DNA of 64,000 nucleotides from an uncultured Alphaproteobacteria bacterium. GTDB taxonomy: Bacteria > Pseudomonadota > Alphaproteobacteria > HIMB59. Shown piece by piece: positions 2 through 10,853 of the stretch (within the stretch, counting starts at the first letter, position 1; each line of letters begins with the position of its first letter). The DNA is taken from NCBI GenBank assembly GCA_902613845.1, contig CACMIW010000001.1, positions 1 to 64,000 on the forward strand, read 5' to 3'. A program made the translations under genes and the position numbers. The notes beneath the pieces were generated by a model. It searched no databases. It was given only the letters and a program-made list of their open reading frames with translations, and was not told the origin of the DNA.

Positions 2-595
2 AATGACAGACAAAGGATTGAACTTTCATCAGAGCCAAATCAACCAATATCTGGTAAACAATGTTATGGTTACAGTATAAAACTATCTAATGATTTTACT
101 GATATTAGAAAAGTAAGTACAACATTAGGTCAGATACATCAAAAGGGTGGCCCGTCTGGGAAAGCAAATAGTTTGTCTTCCTTCCCGCCATTGATACAAA
201 TTGATGCAAGAAAAGGAAATTTGTATTTAAATTGGCATCAACTAAGTGGCTCTAAAGACAATGTTAAAGATGAATCAAAATATTATAAATTAAAAACATT
301 AAAAAGTATGAAAGGTGTGTGGACAGATATCTCTTTGTGTTTAGATTTTGAAAATAAAAGAATAGATGCTTGGATTGATGGGGCTAACATTGTTAAAATT
401 TTAAAGTCACCAATTTTTTTTGAGCCAGAGTCAATTTACTTTAAACACGGTATATATCAGTCATTCATAAGTAACTACACGTCATTCAAAGGTAAAACAC
501 CTACACAAATTGTATATTATGATGAAGTGAGAAGAGGTAATTCTATTGAAGATGTAGATATCAACGTAAACCCTAATTTAAAATTTGTTGATTAA
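2..595 (+). CDS. Polysaccharide lyase-like protein, 3' part only
   Basis: The reading frame is open from the left edge (codons from position 2) to a TAA at 593-595, so the true start lies outside the window. The visible 197 residues fit a jelly-roll glycan-binding or lyase fold of the heparin-lyase-I-like type (Pfam 'Polysacc_lyase'). They show an early R-x-E-L-S segment, a G-x-x-Y-x-I strand, a Q-I-H-Q strand, a P-x-x-x-I-D-A strand and a closing 'DEVRRG' strand. Such proteins are normally secreted and cleave acidic polysaccharides, but the signal peptide region is missing here. It lies just beyond the 3' end of the neighbouring tRNA-Gly gene, a common island boundary. The family call is by pattern only, and the substrate is unknown. 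Confidence 0.55.
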   Translation, partial: NDRQRIELSSEPNQPISGKQCYGYSIKLSNDFTDIRKVSTTLGQIHQKGGPSGKANSLSSFPPLIQIDARKGNLYLNWHQLSGSKDNVKDESKYYKLKTLKSMKGVWTDISLCLDFENKRIDAWIDGANIVKILKSPIFFEPESIYFKHGIYQSFISNYTSFKGKTPTQIVYYDEVRRGNSIEDVDINVNPNLKFVD

Positions 596-3452: not shown

Positions 3453-5528
3453 ATGAAGAATAACTATATTCCAGATATCTTTAAAGAAAAAATCTATTTA
3501 TCAATAAAGTATATTTATTCTTTATTTTTTTTCATATTATTTGTTCTATCAGCATTAGCTTTATTTACTTTTGACATAAATGATAATTCTTTTTTAACTA
3601 GTACTAGTAATGTATCTAATAATCTATTAGGTGATTTTGGATCATATTTTGCAAGCTTTGTTTTTTATACGTTTGGGGTCTTAGGTTACTTAACCTCTCT
3701 TTTTTTCTTAATATCTTCTGTATTAATTTTAATTAGTAAATTGCCTAAATACATATTTATAAGACTATTATTGTTTTTCATAAGTCTAATCTTAATACCG
3801 CAAACTTTTTTATTGTACGGGATTGAATTTACATTTATTGAATCAATACAAATTTGGGGTATCTTTGCCTTACAATTATATACAATTCACGAACTTGAAT
3901 ATGTGAGCTATTTATTATCATTTTTTGGGATGGTCATTTATTTTTATTCACAAAATATTTTTAATCTACTTAAAATTCCCAAAATTAGTATTGGTAATAG
4001 TTTTAAATTTAATAAAAAAGAAACATATAATTATAATAAAGTTAAAAAAGAACCTTTTATAAACAGTATTCCTGGAACTACTATTGAAGGTAGAGACAAA
4101 ATTGAAAACGAAAGTGACAATAAAAGTCAAAAATTAAAAAATGATTATCACTCTCCTTCACTTGAAATTTTAGATAGAGAAGAAACTGTTGATAAAAAAA
4201 GGCAAGGCAAGGATAGTATAAAATTTAATTCAGATTTATTAGAGAAAGTATTCGAAGATTTTAATATTGAGATAGAGGTTGTTAATGTAAAACTTGGTCC
4301 TGTTGTAACTTTATTTGAAATTTTACCAGCTGCAGGAATAAAAATTAATACAATCATAAATCTTGCTGATGATATATCTAGGAGTATGGGTGTCGGGGCC
4401 GTAAGAATATCTCAAATATTTGGCACACAATATTTGGGTGTTGAAGTTCCAAATGATCAACGAGAAACTGTAACTATTAGAGAATTGCTGAGTGATGAAA
4501 ATTTTAAAAAAACTTCATCCAAAATCCCTATTTGTATTGGAAAAGATATTTCAGGAAAAATAGAAGTTATTGATTTAAGCAAAACACCACATCTTTTAGT
4601 CGCAGGCACTACAGGTTCTGGAAAGTCTGTATTTATAAATACTTTGCTAGCAAGTATTTTGTACAAATTTTCACCTAAAGAATTACGATTAATACTTATT
4701 GACCCGAAGATGCTTGAACTAAGTGTTTATAATGACATTGCACATTTGCTAACACCAGTTGTTACTGAGCCAAAAAAAGCAATTATTGCCCTAAAATGGG
4801 TATGTAAAGAAATGGAAAGAAGGTATTCACTTATGAATGAGGAGAATACAAGAAGCTTAGAGGGGTACAATGAAAAGTCGATTGAAAAGCTTCCTTATAT
4901 AGTTGTTTTCATTGATGAGATGGCTGATTTGATGATGACTGCTGGTAAAGAAGTTGAACATTATGTTCAAAGACTTGCGCAAATGGCTAGGGCATGTGGA
5001 ATACATTTAGTCATGGCAACTCAAAGACCAAGTGTTGATATTATTACAGGGAGTATTAAAGCAAACTTTCCATCGAGAATAAGTTTTCAGGTTGCTAGCA
5101 AATATGATAGCAGAACAGTCTTAGGAGAAATAGGTGCGGAACAGTTACTTGGAAACGGTGACATGCTTATGTCTAAAAATGGAGGAAACATCATCCGTTA
5201 TCAATCAGCCTTTATATCAGATAATGAAGTAAACAAATTAATAAATGAAATTAAAAAAAGTCAATCTGTCGAGTATCTAGATGAATTAGATGAAATAATT
5301 AAAAACAATGATGAAAACTTTGATAGCCTAAGTGACGAAGATGAAGCTTTAATATCAAAATCTATAGATCTCATTAAATCAACAAATAAAGCATCAACTA
5401 GTTTTCTCCAGAGAAATTTTCAAGTTGGTTATAACAAAGCTGCTAGAATAATGGAGGCGCTTGAACAAAGAGGTGTTGTTTCTCCACCAAATCACGCTGG
5501 AAAAAGGGAAATTTTAATCAATCAATAA
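3453..5528 (+). CDS. ftsK: DNA translocase FtsK
   Basis: The protein has 691 residues from ATG 3453. An upstream in-frame ATG at 3336 was rejected because it lies inside ubiH. Four hydrophobic segments fill the first ~175 residues, then a short linker. The motor carries Walker A GTTGSGKS (about 385-392) and Walker B 'IVVFIDEMADLM'. The C-terminal winged-helix gamma domain ('FQVGYNKAARIMEALEQRG') reads KOPS. FtsK pumps DNA at the septum and activates XerCD at dif. The linker is short for the family, as expected in a small genome. TATATT at 3440-3445 lies 7 nt before the ATG, so the mRNA may be leaderless. The 3' end overlaps the convergent winged-helix gene by 15 nt. Confidence 0.96.
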   Translation: MKNNYIPDIFKEKIYLSIKYIYSLFFFILFVLSALALFTFDINDNSFLTSTSNVSNNLLGDFGSYFASFVFYTFGVLGYLTSLFFLISSVLILISKLPKYIFIRLLLFFISLILIPQTFLLYGIEFTFIESIQIWGIFALQLYTIHELEYVSYLLSFFGMVIYFYSQNIFNLLKIPKISIGNSFKFNKKETYNYNKVKKEPFINSIPGTTIEGRDKIENESDNKSQKLKNDYHSPSLEILDREETVDKKRQGKDSIKFNSDLLEKVFEDFNIEIEVVNVKLGPVVTLFEILPAAGIKINTIINLADDISRSMGVGAVRISQIFGTQYLGVEVPNDQRETVTIRELLSDENFKKTSSKIPICIGKDISGKIEVIDLSKTPHLLVAGTTGSGKSVFINTLLASILYKFSPKELRLILIDPKMLELSVYNDIAHLLTPVVTEPKKAIIALKWVCKEMERRYSLMNEENTRSLEGYNEKSIEKLPYIVVFIDEMADLMMTAGKEVEHYVQRLAQMARACGIHLVMATQRPSVDIITGSIKANFPSRISFQVASKYDSRTVLGEIGAEQLLGNGDMLMSKNGGNIIRYQSAFISDNEVNKLINEIKKSQSVEYLDELDEIIKNNDENFDSLSDEDEALISKSIDLIKSTNKASTSFLQRNFQVGYNKAARIMEALEQRGVVSPPNHAGKREILINQ

Positions 5529-6038
5529 ACGAAGTTTTTTTTCGTGTGACTGGAAATTTACATCTAAATTTAAATCCTCATTTAATTTGTTTTTTAAATT
5601 TGTTAAGTGAGTATCTAATTTATTGATTTGAATAGATTTATCTCTTTTCCAAATTCTTTTATATAAGAGATCTTTATTAACACCATGCTTAGATAATAAA
5701 ATATTATTTAAGATAATATTTTGAATTTCACTTAATAGAGACCTTTTTTTGGAGTTTTCAACTAATCGTTGATAAGGATAATAATTGTAATTACTAATTG
5801 GTATATGGATATCTACAATTGATTTTAAAATTTCAGACATTAGATAATTTATGTCAACTGGAGTTGAAATTTCTTTTTTAAAATCATCGATAAAAAGGTT
5901 AATATTTTTTGTAGATTCATTTATCTTTATAGTAGTGAAATAAGCCTCATTTTCTGAGGCTAAAGAAAATTTTTTATTTTCTAAATAGTTTTTTAAAGTT
6001 TTATAAATTAAATAGTTTTCACAATCTAATTTTATCAA
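5514..6038 (-). CDS. Winged-helix DNA-binding protein (OmpR-type C-terminal domain)
   Basis: The protein has 174 residues. The C-terminal ~70 residues fit the OmpR/PhoB effector fold: 'GVNKDLLYKRIWKR' followed by 'LDTHLTNLKNKL' matches the usual v-x-R-x-x-L-x-x-x-V-W ... T-H-x-x-x-L-R-x-K-L pattern. The basic recognition residues are partly replaced by Asn and Lys. The N-terminal part is not a recognisable receiver domain, so no phosphorylation input is evident. It is the last gene of a minus-strand run (sulfotransferase-like, yggS, LolA-like, this gene). Target genes are unknown. A stand-alone winged-helix protein of this kind occurs near these genes in other alphaproteobacteria (recalled, not checked). 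Confidence 0.55.
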   Translation of the reverse strand: MIKLDCENYLIYKTLKNYLENKKFSLASENEAYFTTIKINESTKNINLFIDDFKKEISTPVDINYLMSEILKSIVDIHIPISNYNYYPYQRLVENSKKRSLLSEIQNIILNNILLSKHGVNKDLLYKRIWKRDKSIQINKLDTHLTNLKNKLNEDLNLDVNFQSHEKKLRLLID

Positions 6039-6050
6039 TACATCACCATA

Positions 6051-6521
6051 TTAAGAATATTCTACAAAATTAAAATGCCAGAAATATTTTTTATTTATTG
6101 TATCAAAATTACAATTAAAAATATTTACACTTAAATTTACATCTTCTGATTTGATAGAAAGCCTTTTTATGAAATTATTTTTACTTTTTTCTACCTTAAT
6201 ATAGAGATCATTGTCTTTATAGTATTCCTTTATATTTGGATAATCAGAAGCTAATTTCATAAATTTCTCTAAGGACTCGGTATTATCTGTAAGCTTTTGA
6301 ACAAATTTAGTATCATTTCTTATTAAATAAAATTTATTTTCTTTAGCTATGATTGTGAAGAGATCCTGTTTTATATACTGATATCTTAAAGATTGGTCTT
6401 TTAACATTAGTATACCTTCTTGTACTTCTCCATTTTTATAAACTTCTTCAAAGTTACATTTGACTTCGACAGCAAATAAACTATTAAAATAGAAAGAAAA
6501 TAATAAAATTAATTTTTTCAA
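6051..6521 (-). CDS. lolA: Probable LolA-like periplasmic lipoprotein carrier
   Basis: The protein has 156 residues with a short signal peptide ending near Ala17. The mature part follows the LolA pattern in outline: an early 'FEEVYKNGEVQEG' (F-x-Q-x-x...G-x-F), 'LRYQYIKQDLFTII' (L-R-W-x-Y-x-x-P...I) and a 'KFYLIRND' strand. LolA ferries lipoproteins from the inner to the outer membrane. In alphaproteobacteria lolA is typically beside ftsK; here it is close but on the opposite strand. The protein is shorter than usual LolA (about 200) and strongly diverged, so a DUF-type secreted protein is an alternative. Its start overlaps the yggS stop by 4 nt. Confidence 0.5.
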   Translation of the reverse strand: MKKLILLFSFYFNSLFAVEVKCNFEEVYKNGEVQEGILMLKDQSLRYQYIKQDLFTIIAKENKFYLIRNDTKFVQKLTDNTESLEKFMKLASDYPNIKEYYKDNDLYIKVEKSKNNFIKRLSIKSEDVNLSVNIFNCNFDTINKKYFWHFNFVEYS

Positions 6522-7147
6522 CTAAATATTTTAGACCCCACTCTTATTAAATTGGATCCGCATTTTAAAGAAATTTCGTAATCGCCACTCATTCCCATGC
6601 TTAATTTTAAGTTTGGATTTAGTTCATCTCTAATGTTTTTTAGTTTTTCAAAATGAATTTTAGCTTTATCATCAAAAGGAGGTATACACATTAATCCGAT
6701 TATATTTAAATTTTGTTTTAAACAAATCTGATACAAATTATTTAAATTGTCAGGTAGAACTCCTGATTTTTGTTCTTCTTCTCCAATATTTACTTGAATA
6801 TAAAAATTCTTTGTTTTTATTTTAGACTTATTTTTTACTTTGGCTATTTCATTGACTAATTTTTCTCTATCAATGCTCTGTATTGTATTAAATAGATTTA
6901 ATGCTAATTTTACTTTGTTTGTTTGAAGTGGGCCAATTAGATGTAAGTCTAAAATATGGTTTGAAAAATTCTTGAATTTCTCATTTGCTTCTTGAACCTT
7001 ATTTTCACCAAACAAACTATACCCTTTCTCAATAAGTTCTTTAATTGTATGAACATCCCTATTTTTAGTGACTATTTGCAATTTAGCAAAAGGGAATGAT
7101 TCAAGTGTTTTGTTTATTTTTTCGAGTTGAGCATAATTAACTGTCAT
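6518..7147 (-). CDS. yggS: YggS/PROSC family PLP homeostasis protein
   Basis: The protein has 209 residues in a TIM-barrel, alanine-racemase-N-type fold. The PLP lysine is in 'QIVTKNRD' (Lys28). It is followed by 'FGENKVQEANEK', 'HLIGPLQTNKVK' (usual GxLQxNK), 'QVNIGEEEQKSGV' and the C-terminal 'LSMGMSGDYEISLKCGSNLIRVGS' phosphate-binding stretch, all hallmarks of the family. The protein binds pyridoxal phosphate and buffers its level; it is not an enzyme in the usual sense. It sits second in a four-gene minus-strand run, 6 nt after the sulfotransferase-like gene and overlapping the LolA-like gene by 4 nt. Confidence 0.93.
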   Translation of the reverse strand: MTVNYAQLEKINKTLESFPFAKLQIVTKNRDVHTIKELIEKGYSLFGENKVQEANEKFKNFSNHILDLHLIGPLQTNKVKLALNLFNTIQSIDREKLVNEIAKVKNKSKIKTKNFYIQVNIGEEEQKSGVLPDNLNNLYQICLKQNLNIIGLMCIPPFDDKAKIHFEKLKNIRDELNPNLKLSMGMSGDYEISLKCGSNLIRVGSKIFS

Positions 7148-7153
7148 AATTAA

Positions 7154-8095
7154 TTAAATATCATATGTTTCAACCAATTCGTCTACATAATTACCGAGAA
7201 ATTTTTTTTCCTTATTTGACAGTTCGACATCTTCTTTATGAATTGCGATTGGGTTTTTTTTGATGAATAATTCAATCAAATCATAGTTTAATTCCATTTC
7301 AACACCTGACTGTATTAAATGTAGAATAACAGAACTTAATGTTTCAAAGGTATTATTATAAATATCTTTTTTTGAAATAATTTTACCTCTCAGAGAAGTT
7401 AATACATTTGGATCTGACCAACTTTCTGTATGAATATGCCAACCTTTGGTTGGGAATTTAAAATTAGCTTTTGAAAAAGATTCATTTTGTTCTTTTTGAT
7501 CTAAATTTAAAAATATATTTCTTGCAACTTCTTGATCTTGATTAACAGTTTTTTTGATACTTGAATAGACCTCATAGGGGTTATTCAATATTAGTATATA
7601 AGATTGTGAAAGAGATTGTTTTGTAAAATTATAATTATTTTCGCTTGAAAAAAAGGGTATTTCATTTTGTAAAAATTTAAATTTAACATTTGATTTATTT
7701 AAAATCATCCACTGAAAAAAATAAGATTGATTTACAAGAGTGTTAAAATTGATATTTTCACTATATTGAATAGTATTATTAATTTCATATTTGTAGGATT
7801 TTATTTCTTGTTTTAAATATTTGTTATTCTCAATGTAATACTGAATAAAAAAAATTAGGTATTTACTATCATCTTCTAAAAAAGTATTTATCCAGACAAT
7901 TTTATTATTTGATGCATCTTGATTATAGTTGCTTATAGAATTTGAAATATATTTCACTGATATTTCATAAAATGCCTTTTCATCATTTTTAATTTTCTGA
8001 AGATACTCGAAGATTTCTTTAAACTTTTGATCCAAAAACAAATTATCTATATGTTTTAAATGGTAATGATATTTAAATTTGTTTAAAAAAGACAT
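7154..8095 (-). CDS. Divergent sulfotransferase-like protein without a visible PAPS loop
   Basis: The protein has 313 residues. The second half resembles the end of bacterial sulfotransferases: 'LILNNPYEVYSSIKK' is like the 3'-phosphate motif R-x-P-x-x-x-x-x-S, and 'GWHIHTESWSDPNV' plus a downstream helix is like the W-x-x-x-x-x-S-W segment before the R-Y-E-D-L motif (here 'LRGKIISKKDI'). The 5' PAPS loop (G-x-P-R-S-G-T-T) was not found, and the N-terminal 130 residues are helical and unrecognised. It may therefore be an inactive or altered homologue. It diverges from the TPR-sulfotransferase gene with 27 nt between starts, which suggests a functional pair. Function unknown. Confidence 0.45.
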   Translation of the reverse strand: MSFLNKFKYHYHLKHIDNLFLDQKFKEIFEYLQKIKNDEKAFYEISVKYISNSISNYNQDASNNKIVWINTFLEDDSKYLIFFIQYYIENNKYLKQEIKSYKYEINNTIQYSENINFNTLVNQSYFFQWMILNKSNVKFKFLQNEIPFFSSENNYNFTKQSLSQSYILILNNPYEVYSSIKKTVNQDQEVARNIFLNLDQKEQNESFSKANFKFPTKGWHIHTESWSDPNVLTSLRGKIISKKDIYNNTFETLSSVILHLIQSGVEMELNYDLIELFIKKNPIAIHKEDVELSNKEKKFLGNYVDELVETYDI

Positions 8096-8122
8096 TATAT
8101 TAAATATCTATATATTAAATTT

Positions 8123-9754
8123 ATGCAAAATGAAATTTTAGAACTATATAAGCTTATACAAAATAAAAATATTGAAAAAGCATATTCTATTACGAAAAAA
8201 CATTACTCAAATAATAAAAATAATAAGGATATTATTAAAATATTGGCCTATCTTCACATTCAAAAAACTCAATATGATGCGGCTATTAGAGTTCTTAATG
8301 AATTTTACAATGACAATTCAGAGGAAAAAGATTTTGACTATTTTATTAATATGGGAGTTTGTCACAAAGCAAACGAAGATTATGAGAAATCTTTAATGAT
8401 GTATGAACAAGCGATCAAAATCAATCCTGACTCCCACATGTGTTATACTGTGCCAGCAGAGATATATTTAAAATTAAGAGATTTTAAAAAGGCAATGGAA
8501 TTTCTCGACACTGCTTTAGATAAAATGAAAATTATAGGTGAAGAGACTATAAATTTTCCAAATACTATTAAACTCAAAACTGAAGTTTATGTTGCTTTAA
8601 ATAAAGATAAAGAAAATGAAAATATGTTATTAGAAATCTTAAAAGGAAAATTTCATCCAGATATTTTTTATTTATTATCTATCGTAAATTCAAAACTCAT
8701 CGATGACGCTCTACTAGATACGGCCGAAAGGCAATTAGAAGAATATGATAAAAAATATGAAAATAAATTAGATAGATTTTGGTATGTTCATCCGCTTTAT
8801 TTTGGTTTAGCTATATTTTATAATCAAAGAAATAAACAAAAATCTGAAAAATTTTATGAACTTGGAAATAAAGAAATAATGAGTTCGCTAAGATATAATT
8901 CTTTTGAGTACCAAACAGACATTGTGAACATAATGGACTCCTATAGTAAAAATTTTTTAGATAAAAAACAAATTATAGATGAGACTGAAGGTGGTAGTAA
9001 TTTTTTTATATTAGGTACACCTCGATCTGGAACAACATTAATTGAGTCATTCATTGCATCTAATAATGAGGTGACTAGCGGTGGTGAGCTTCTAAGTGCA
9101 AGAAATTTAATTTCCGACTTCGTAAAAAATTTGAATAACCAAAGCACTGAAGAATTTATGGAGCACTTTAGAAGAACTTATTTAAATAGAACAGATTTTT
9201 TAAGAGGGAAACATAAAAACATAGTTGACAAACTTCCAGATAATTTTTTGTACATAGGTTTTTTATTTAAATTACTTCCTAAAACAAAAATTATACGAAC
9301 TTTTAGAGACCCTTGGGACGTAGCAGTATCCATGTTTAAACAAAGATATGTCACAAATATTCCATACAGCGCAAGCTTTTTTAATATAGGGGTATTTATG
9401 GCAAACTTTGAGGCAATCAACGTTTTTTGGAACAAAATTTTAGAAGAAAAAAATGATTTACTGGACATAAGATATGAAGAGCTTGTTGAAGATCCTGAAA
9501 ATCATCAAAAAAAAATTTATGAATTCTTAAACATTAATTCTGATTTCGACGAGAGTAGAAGAAAATCATTCTTCTCTCAAACAGCTAGCATCCGTCAGAT
9601 AGGATCAAATATTCATAAAAAATCTGTAAAAAAAGAGGAGTTTTTAGCTCACAAAAACGAATTCTTTGAGTCAATTCACATGCAAAGAGGTTATTGGGAA
9701 AAAAGGGGTATAGTAAGTAAAAATAGTGATTTTTTTGGTTATAAATTAAGCTAA
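8123..9754 (+). CDS. TPR repeat-containing sulfotransferase
   Basis: The protein has 543 residues. About the first 200 are TPR-type helical pairs ('INMGVCHKANEDYEKSLMMY' and the following repeat are clear). The C-terminal half is a sulfotransferase domain, with 5' PAPS-binding loop GTPRSGTT (about 298-305) and 3'-phosphate motif 'TFRDPWDVAVS' (about 392-402), then 'DIRYEELVEDPE'. It should transfer sulfate from PAPS to a hydroxyl or amine; the acceptor is unknown. TATATT at 8111-8116 lies 6 nt before the ATG and no Shine-Dalgarno is seen, so the mRNA may be leaderless. It shares a 27-nt gap with the divergent sulfotransferase-like gene. Confidence 0.88.
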   Translation: MQNEILELYKLIQNKNIEKAYSITKKHYSNNKNNKDIIKILAYLHIQKTQYDAAIRVLNEFYNDNSEEKDFDYFINMGVCHKANEDYEKSLMMYEQAIKINPDSHMCYTVPAEIYLKLRDFKKAMEFLDTALDKMKIIGEETINFPNTIKLKTEVYVALNKDKENENMLLEILKGKFHPDIFYLLSIVNSKLIDDALLDTAERQLEEYDKKYENKLDRFWYVHPLYFGLAIFYNQRNKQKSEKFYELGNKEIMSSLRYNSFEYQTDIVNIMDSYSKNFLDKKQIIDETEGGSNFFILGTPRSGTTLIESFIASNNEVTSGGELLSARNLISDFVKNLNNQSTEEFMEHFRRTYLNRTDFLRGKHKNIVDKLPDNFLYIGFLFKLLPKTKIIRTFRDPWDVAVSMFKQRYVTNIPYSASFFNIGVFMANFEAINVFWNKILEEKNDLLDIRYEELVEDPENHQKKIYEFLNINSDFDESRRKSFFSQTASIRQIGSNIHKKSVKKEEFLAHKNEFFESIHMQRGYWEKRGIVSKNSDFFGYKLS

Positions 9755-9884: not shown

Positions 9885-10853
9885 ATGAAAAAGATACTAT
9901 TAGCGATCTCTGCTTTATCAGCTGCATTATTTTCTACAGCTGCAAACGCAGATATCTCAGTAGGCGGCTCAATGACAGCTGCTTACGTTGATGCAGAAGG
10001 TAATGCAGACGCTCATATCGGTGGTGCAATTTCTTTCTCAATGTCAACAACAACAGACGGTGGTGTAACAATCTCTGCTGGTGGTTCAATCTCAAATGAT
10101 AATGACGCTACAGGTAACAACACTGCTGCAACTGGTTTGACAGCATTAACATTTGGTTTTGCAAATGGTTCAATTACAGTAGCTAACGACGTTGCTGTTC
10201 CTAACGGAACAGGTCTAGTTGGTGAGCTTGTTGCACATGCTGACTCAAACAGAGTTACACATACTAATGATGTTGCTATTAACGTTGACGATGGTTCAGG
10301 TATTAGTGGTACAACAACTCTTGGTGATATGACTATTACTGCAACACACTTCTATGATGGTACTGCAGGAACTAAGGGTCACACAGACTCAGTAAGTGAT
10401 GGAACAATATCAGGTTCTGGTATTAGCATTACTATGCCTTTAGGTGACATGTCATTAACAGCTTCTTCAGCTGAAACTGACGAGAACGGTGTTAATTACG
10501 CATCAACTGGTGCTGCTCTAACAATGACTATGGGTGGCGGTTCATTAGGTGTTGGTTTTGAATCAACAAGCAATGATACTACAGGTGCTGCAACTGAAGG
10601 TGAAGCATACTCAGTAACTTACTCTACAACAATGGGTACTGCTGCTGTTGCTATCGGTTACACTGGTTTTGACGCTGGTACAACTGCTTCAGGCGGAACT
10701 TCATCAAAAACTGACGTTACATTATCACAATCTTTAGGTGGTGGTGCTTCAGTATTTGCAGAGATGAGTAGCTTGACAGGTGCTGGTGCTGCTGCACCAA
10801 CAAACACTACAAGTGAGACTGTTATTGCAATTGGAACAAGCGTAAGCTTCTAA
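9885..10853 (+). CDS. Outer-membrane porin, marine alphaproteobacterial type
   Basis: The protein has 322 residues with a classic signal peptide cleaved after Ala22 ('TAANA'). The mature part is built from alternating Gly/Ser/Thr/Ala strands and ends in Phe ('GTSVSF'), the usual terminal residue of outer-membrane beta-barrels inserted by the BAM complex. It should allow passive diffusion of small solutes. Aromatic residues are scarce, Cys and Trp are absent, and the coding sequence is visibly less AT-rich than its neighbours. These are signs of a highly expressed gene. A strong AAGGA ribosome-binding site lies 8 nt before the ATG. A possible promoter is TTGCAT at 9813 with AT-rich -10 candidates near 9835-9843. 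It is monocistronic with its own terminator. Confidence 0.82.
   Translation: MKKILLAISALSAALFSTAANADISVGGSMTAAYVDAEGNADAHIGGAISFSMSTTTDGGVTISAGGSISNDNDATGNNTAATGLTALTFGFANGSITVANDVAVPNGTGLVGELVAHADSNRVTHTNDVAINVDDGSGISGTTTLGDMTITATHFYDGTAGTKGHTDSVSDGTISGSGISITMPLGDMSLTASSAETDENGVNYASTGAALTMTMGGGSLGVGFESTSNDTTGAATEGEAYSVTYSTTMGTAAVAIGYTGFDAGTTASGGTSSKTDVTLSQSLGGGASVFAEMSSLTGAGAAAPTNTTSETVIAIGTSVSF

Follow-up and report, generated by a model that had tools for sequence, protein, structure and literature searches.

A predicted pseudo-sulfotransferase encoded divergently from a TPST-like TPR-sulfotransferase in an alphaproteobacterial genus

Several described systems resemble parts of the locus reported here. 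The Sulfotransfer_1 enzymes (PF00685) comprise StaL, Teg12, Teg14, the cytosolic sulfotransferases (SULTs) and alphaproteobacterial members, and also among the SULTs is the human orphan SULT4A1 (PDB 1ZD1), for which activity is claimed in the title of PMC8803991. RaxST of Xanthomonas is a bacterial tyrosine sulfotransferase whose sulfate donor, 3'-phosphoadenosine 5'-phosphosulfate (PAPS), is made by ATP sulfurylase and adenosine 5'-phosphosulfate (APS) kinase (PMC4216712), and the deoxyhypusine synthase of trypanosomatids is activated by a related protein that has itself lost catalysis (PMC3663545). Here, we describe a pair of divergent genes in a stretch of 64,000 nucleotides (hereafter, the window), which forms the start of contig C1 of an uncultured alphaproteobacterial genome (1.28 Mb in 28 contigs, 92% complete). 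On the minus strand, 7154..8095 encodes a protein of 313 residues, p313; on the plus strand, 8123..9754 encodes a sulfotransferase of 543 residues with tetratricopeptide repeats (TPR), referred to as the partner. An A+T-rich gap of 27 nucleotides (8096..8122) separates the two start codons, all as located by an earlier note on this DNA. We propose, with a probability of roughly 0.55, that p313 is a pseudoenzyme of the Sulfotransfer_1 type that works with the divergent TPR-sulfotransferase, whose catalytic domain resembles that of the tyrosylprotein sulfotransferases (TPSTs).

Compared with the Sulfotransfer_1 enzymes, p313 shares the fold, the order of elements, the SW motif and the proline of the 3' motif, whereas its PAPS loop, KTH motif, 3' Arg and Ser and YED motif are degenerate, its lid is missing, and it carries an extra helical N-terminus of about 60 residues. 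SULT4A1, whose structure 1ZD1 is among the Foldseek matches of p313, keeps the PAPS domains and the active-site His that p313 has lost; unlike SULT4A1, p313 is genetically paired with an enzyme whose motifs are intact. That partner shares with TPST1 and TPST2 the fold of the catalytic domain (Z 22.6 over 240 residues), the PRSGTT loop and the GE stretch, but it is bacterial and has a large N-terminal TPR domain. It can be likened to RaxST by description, as a bacterial sulfotransferase using PAPS; RaxST belongs to an operon with raxA and raxB, and the accessible text of PMC4216712 mentions no pseudo-sulfotransferase. Deoxyhypusine synthase offers a precedent for activation by a dead relative in a different enzyme, although its dead subunit is a paralog, whereas p313 belongs to another sulfotransferase branch than its partner. 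Enzyme-pseudoenzyme pairs are already known, and what is new here is the pseudo-sulfotransferase family. As far as we know, few studies have addressed protein sulfation in free-living bacteria. Among the matches listed in our literature search, none described the pairing of a sulfotransferase with a pseudo-sulfotransferase, as judged by titles and the beginnings of abstracts, and none contained both HIMB59 and sulfotransferase; a search on TPR-sulfotransferases of marine bacteria gave off-topic matches only, and the word sulfotransferase was not found in the accessible text of the HIMB59 papers PMC10734472 and PMC10308909. The pair is small and open to experiment, and it belongs to a lineage of which strains are in culture (HIMB59 and LSUCC0245; PMC10308909) and which has relatives with neither gene at the site.

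The resemblance of p313 to sulfotransferases cannot be proved from its single sequence, but it can be with the family profile and the fold. The single sequence had no significant match in Pfam, NCBIfam or PDB sequences, the window protein had no match to PF00685 at the curated Pfam cut-off, and among 25 of the 26 Pfam families listed for 40 p313 members there was no sulfotransferase family. Against PHROGs, it gave a weak match to phrog_8299, of unknown function (E 0.011); this match and one to PETase (E 0.32) were taken as chance or uninformative. The profile built from 40 family members, by comparison, matched a protein outside the family, from genome G156, at 6.7e-12. This protein is the best Sulfotransfer_1 match of the genus (PF00685 at 1.2e-24), so that p313 is tied by a significant profile match to a bona fide member of the superfamily. 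The profile also picked up proteins in the second family of the order, with 1.5e-14 as its best value there, and where p313 aligns to intact enzymes, the aligned part begins at the first strand and reaches the YED region. When the family profile was searched against the PDB, nothing was found, and the link to the PDB sulfotransferases therefore rests on fold.

The AlphaFold2 model of p313 (mean predicted local distance difference test score, pLDDT, 91.8; predicted template modelling score 0.90) folds as a sulfotransferase over residues of about 61-313, behind a helical stretch of residues 1-60, and the structure matches mostly cover residues 61-313. The 26 Foldseek matches at or below an E of 0.001 were all sulfotransferases, including Teg12 and Teg14, which we take to be such enzymes; from rank 31 on (E 4.6e-3 and worse), P-loop nucleoside triphosphatases, kinases and a few more sulfotransferases followed. 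Similarly, in the VIA fold comparison all 50 rows among the matches listed were sulfotransferases (Z 13.2-16.0), the best among these being Teg14 (Z 16.0, root-mean-square deviation 3.3, 198 residues). Judged by its family profile and predicted model, p313 is a sulfotransferase by descent and fold. The earlier note had seen the likeness in the C-terminal half; the likeness stands, while the region is wider than that half. A different fold, by which that note would have been refuted, is not what the model shows. The p313 sequences form one clade with a support of 100/100 (14 of the 40 members used). The helical residues 1-60 (window 7916-8095) are absent from most intact relatives, which start at the first strand.

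To characterize the active site, we compared 40 p313 rows, two of them truncated by a contig end, with a control set of 40 distinct intact relatives, which was obtained from 46 profile hits by removing one family-member piece and five duplicates. In the intact relatives, the P, K, G, N and T of the 5'-phosphosulfate loop (SYPKSGNTW), the K and H of KTH, the R and S of the 3' motif, and the E and D of YED are each present in 40/40. The place of this ancestral loop in p313 is residues 71-79 (7859..7885, minus strand), where the Gly position is Asp (D76) in 34 of the 40 rows, the Lys is kept in four and the T in three. The His of KTH survives in 5/40 rows, the R of the 3' motif in 7/40 and its S in 3/40 (the window protein itself has the Ser and lacks the Arg), and YED is degenerate. 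A C-terminal RxGxxG lid, whose first G occurs in 40/40 intact relatives and whose R in 33/40, is gapped in every p313 row; the approximate place of the missing RxGxxGxW is 7219..7226 (minus strand). The structural SW pair is kept in 40/40 rows and the Pro of the 3' motif in 37/40. Besides D76, a change at the Trp place recurs, with Tyr in 29/40 rows. Across the 11 ligand and catalytic columns, the intact relatives had a mean entropy of 0.17 bits, as against 2.14 over the 234 shared columns, and none of 20,000 random column sets was as conserved. Overall, p313 lacks the 5' loop, catalytic His, 3' Arg and Ser, and lid of an active PAPS-dependent enzyme; from these alignments, we conclude that the PAPS apparatus is lost and that p313 should not bind PAPS. 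The loop previously reported as apparently missing has indeed lost its ligand residues, although its place is still recognizable. A further intact relative outside the count of 40, from G056 (L186; 2.8e-14), has YPKSGNT, RDP, YEDL and the C-terminal lid, with KSH where others have KTH.

The partner keeps the motifs that p313 has lost, in line with the proposed pairing of an intact enzyme and a pseudoenzyme. Its TPR helices occupy residues 1 to about 280 and its TPST-like domain about 287-543; in the AlphaFold2 model (pLDDT 91.0), helices make up the protein as far as about residue 280. A sequence scan gave TPR matches and a Sulfotransfer_3 domain (PF13469, 7e-29) for the protein, which is the only PF00685 match in the window's genome at E up to 0.001. 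Of the residues in its PAPS loop GTPRSGTT (residues 298-305; 9014..9037, plus strand), G298, P300, R301, G303 and T304 do not vary among 39 members; S302 and T305, and outside the loop R395 and S403, are at least 90% conserved. Also invariant is E322 in a GGE motif (9086..9088, plus strand), which aligns in the GEE stretch of human TPST2, at the position that we take to be the catalytic base in TPST. In structure comparison, the catalytic domain was nearest to human and tick tyrosylprotein sulfotransferases (Z 22.0-22.6 in seven rows), the next sulfotransferase scoring 17.5, and O-GlcNAc transferase and SPINDLY were among the rows for the TPR part. The sequence agrees weakly with this assignment: TPST2 matched at 1.5e-4, followed by chains of 5x2b (mouse SULT7A1) at 1e-3. 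No viral relatives of the partner were found. With TPST as its nearest fold and the PAPS loop and GE stretch kept, the partner is, by sequence and predicted structure, a TPST-like sulfotransferase with intact motifs, which bears out the intact 5' and 3' PAPS motifs claimed for it before. In a profile comparison of the two proteins, only 38 N-terminal columns matched, with a probability of 1.8; since the sulfotransferase domains did not match, the comparison does not establish p313 as a copy of the partner.

We then turn to the distribution of the pair. The genus that carries it, which we call HIMB59-type under a presumed name, was represented by 52 genomes, of which 40 contain p313, or 41 when a piece at a contig end is counted (a p313 end of 47 positions at a contig edge in G135). 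Carriers include the uncultured Alphaproteobacteria isolates AG-390-I07 and AG-895-J15. In the 12 remaining genomes we did not accept a real loss of p313, as yggS was found in one of them and leuS in six; a hit in G004 (6.2e-5, 51 residues) that the profile did not match was set aside, and the partner genes of G122 and G128 are truncated by contig ends. The divergent arrangement occurs in all 38 stretches that hold both genes, all from one genus, with a gap of 12-38 nucleotides, or -7 in one stretch in which the gene caller chose an upstream start; gaps were measured with p313 starts trimmed to the start column of the window, which in a few stretches is not an ATG. Since mean spacers in the order HIMB59 are about 2-3 bp (PMC10734472), the short gap by itself is weak evidence. 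The gap keeps TATCTATATATTAAA in six related stretches, while its p313 side varies, and a near-palindromic element like a -10 box could, from its sequence, serve both genes.

The order is divided into two families, HIMB59 and GCA002718135 (PMC10734472), and the families f1 and f2 in our genome listings fit this division. We sought leuS in 14 genomes of the other family and found it in 13; ten regions were taken, nine of which span the site. In all nine, yggS is divergent from a gene of 346-358 residues at a distance of 151-169 nucleotides, with neither p313 nor the partner in between, and this gene matched Porin_4 over cut-off in 7/9. The most parsimonious interpretation is a single joint gain, or a single joint loss, of the two genes. 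The genetic linkage that a heteromeric enzyme-pseudoenzyme pair would show is present both in the joint occurrence and in the empty site, and the search for the same pair in other genomes that was suggested earlier came out in its favor.

We also compared gene trees across 26 of 41 rows (the window and 40 stretches), the rest being dropped for missing or short genes. The distance correlation of p313 and the partner was the highest of 21 gene pairs (raw 0.973, partial 0.957). Comparing two close genomes, G151 (L079 7400-11400) and G161 (L080), revealed a block of about 4 kb that is only 67-72% identical and spans the TPR-enzyme, p313, yggS and 'lolA', flanked on either side by 500-nucleotide windows of 87-97% identity, apart from a transition window and the last window, at 81%. 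Synonymous differences agree with this block for the nearby genome G159, and over a wider stretch for G149/G157; they point the opposite way for G139/G160. The block is likely an allelic replacement, and the sequences suggest that p313 and the partner can be replaced together, which would explain part of their high tree correlation. The porin gene and its relatives had mean synonymous differences of 0.37, far below the 0.56-0.69 of the neighbors, perhaps from the codon bias of high expression.

The loss of catalytic motifs in p313 could mean that it is a decaying remnant of a sulfotransferase gene, but its evolution argues otherwise. The ratio of nonsynonymous to synonymous substitution rates (dN/dS) was 0.096-0.184 over nine close pairs, the ratios being rough in the three with dS >1; the partner gave 0.070-0.124 (eight pairs) and yggS 0.079-0.148 (nine pairs). 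None of the 40 genus matches has an internal stop, the 38 rows listed with the partner keep a length of 313-327 residues, and F148, G237, H259, S293 and K298 are invariant despite identities to the window protein as low as 21%. A frame that is open, syntenic and under purifying selection across the genus is more than chance; by these measures p313 is a working gene, and decay is exceedingly improbable. Purifying selection and invariant residues, along with D76 where relatives have Gly, would also suit a p313 that is still an enzyme, with its active site rebuilt and its donor or chemistry changed. We consider this unlikely, because the columns that once held ligand and catalytic residues, taken together, vary more in p313 than its average column (2.37 bits versus 2.02 over all columns; 8% of random column sets matched or exceeded this variability). 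Such looseness argues against an enzyme rebuilt at the same site, with D76 as the main exception, and besides D76 and the Tyr at the Trp place, no new conserved residue replaces the Lys, His, Arg or Ser.

A number of observations weigh against our reading. Normalized by query length, the TM-scores of the first 26 Foldseek rows for p313 are modest (0.38-0.46), and the two proteins belong to different sulfotransferase branches, as their sulfotransferase domains gave no profile match. The whole block from ftsK to leuS is syntenic across the genus, so that the pairing may be a single inherited arrangement; p313 being one clade, its gain was a matter of no more than a few events, and the same result could have come from two insertions made one after the other at this site. 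The tree correlation is confounded by adjacency and shared recombination, and other pairs also scored high (raw/partial: porin and partner 0.944/0.892, p313 and porin 0.929/0.872, yggS and p313 0.789/0.815). Moreover, the divergent G151/G161 block includes yggS and 'lolA', and mean synonymous divergence over 47 pairs was 0.64 for p313 and 0.63 for the partner, within the 0.56-0.69 of their neighbors (porin apart). Lastly, the p313 stop lies -11 to +44 nucleotides from the yggS start in 39 loci, and with so little or no gap p313 could serve the yggS transcript instead. Several of these points, namely the synteny, the closeness to yggS and the extent of the divergent block, would fit a non-catalytic p313 that is functionally unrelated to the TPR-sulfotransferase, a fold repurposed for the yggS transcript or another partner and held in place by frozen synteny after insertion. 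We find this doubtful: the other family has yggS at the same place without p313 (9/9), the difference at the site involves two sulfotransferase-fold genes together, and the partial tree correlation of p313 is lower with yggS than with the TPR-enzyme. The substrate of the pair raises a separate question. Sharp allele differences between close genomes are common in surface-modifying genes, and the region shows such differences between some close genomes and adjoins a porin gene, as might a system sulfating surface glycans, one of the substrates named in the earlier note. This is quite unlikely in our view, as the catalytic domain of the partner is nearest to protein-tyrosine sulfotransferases and lies behind TPR repeats, and apart from a lyase-like frame no scanned nearby protein was over cut-off for a glycan-related family, glycosyltransferases not being among those searched for. 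The speculative link of the pair to that frame (173-595, plus strand) is not supported: the frame is a real Polysacc_lyase match (PF14099, 6.2e-10), but it stands apart at the contig start, beyond a tRNA and several other genes.

Pseudoenzyme and TPR-enzyme working together thus remains our preferred reading. In this mechanism, p313 has kept the predicted sulfotransferase body and lost the lid at its C-terminus along with the residues for PAPS binding and catalysis, and its likeliest role would be that of a non-catalytic subunit that binds the TPR-enzyme and activates, regulates or steers it, or presents its protein substrate. The substrate would be a protein or peptide that receives sulfate in the cytoplasm from PAPS made by the cell itself. 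As a tentative extension, the pair may form a heteromeric protein-sulfotransferase, in which the TPR enzyme, TPST-like itself, depends on a dedicated pseudo-sulfotransferase subunit from another branch, and which is exchanged as an allelic unit in marine HIMB59-type bacteria, possibly varying a sulfated envelope protein such as the neighboring porin.

PAPS should be available to such an enzyme, as APS kinase is widespread in the genus: it was over cut-off in 42/52 genomes and matched in all ten near-complete ones, mostly in an open reading frame (ORF) of about 621 residues taken as CysNC. A PAPS supply serving this pair alone was rejected, since the PAPS-reductase family is also general in the genus (over cut-off in 42/52 genomes).

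The pair is bordered on the left by the yggS-like gene (6518..7147, minus strand; Ala_racemase_N 8.5e-12), 6 nucleotides downstream of p313, and on the right by the porin-like gene (9885..10853, plus strand; Porin_4 5.2e-10). The names yggS and 'lolA' are our own labels; the 'lolA' ORF (6051-6521) had no Pfam match, and a 'winged' ORF (5514-6038) had a Trans_reg_C match below cut-off. In L241 of the other family, a Trans_reg_C ORF (8042-8635, 9.6e-07) directly follows yggS, so that the genes behind yggS differ from those in the window. Intact Sulfotransfer_1 genes, or more genes like the TPR-sulfotransferase, occur near the thioredoxin-TPR end of the block or elsewhere in L206 (6926-7786), L207, L200 and L249, a possible hot spot for sulfotransferase genes. 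In L207, an ORF of 286 residues adjoining the thioredoxin-TPR gene matches a window ORF that begins at base 2.
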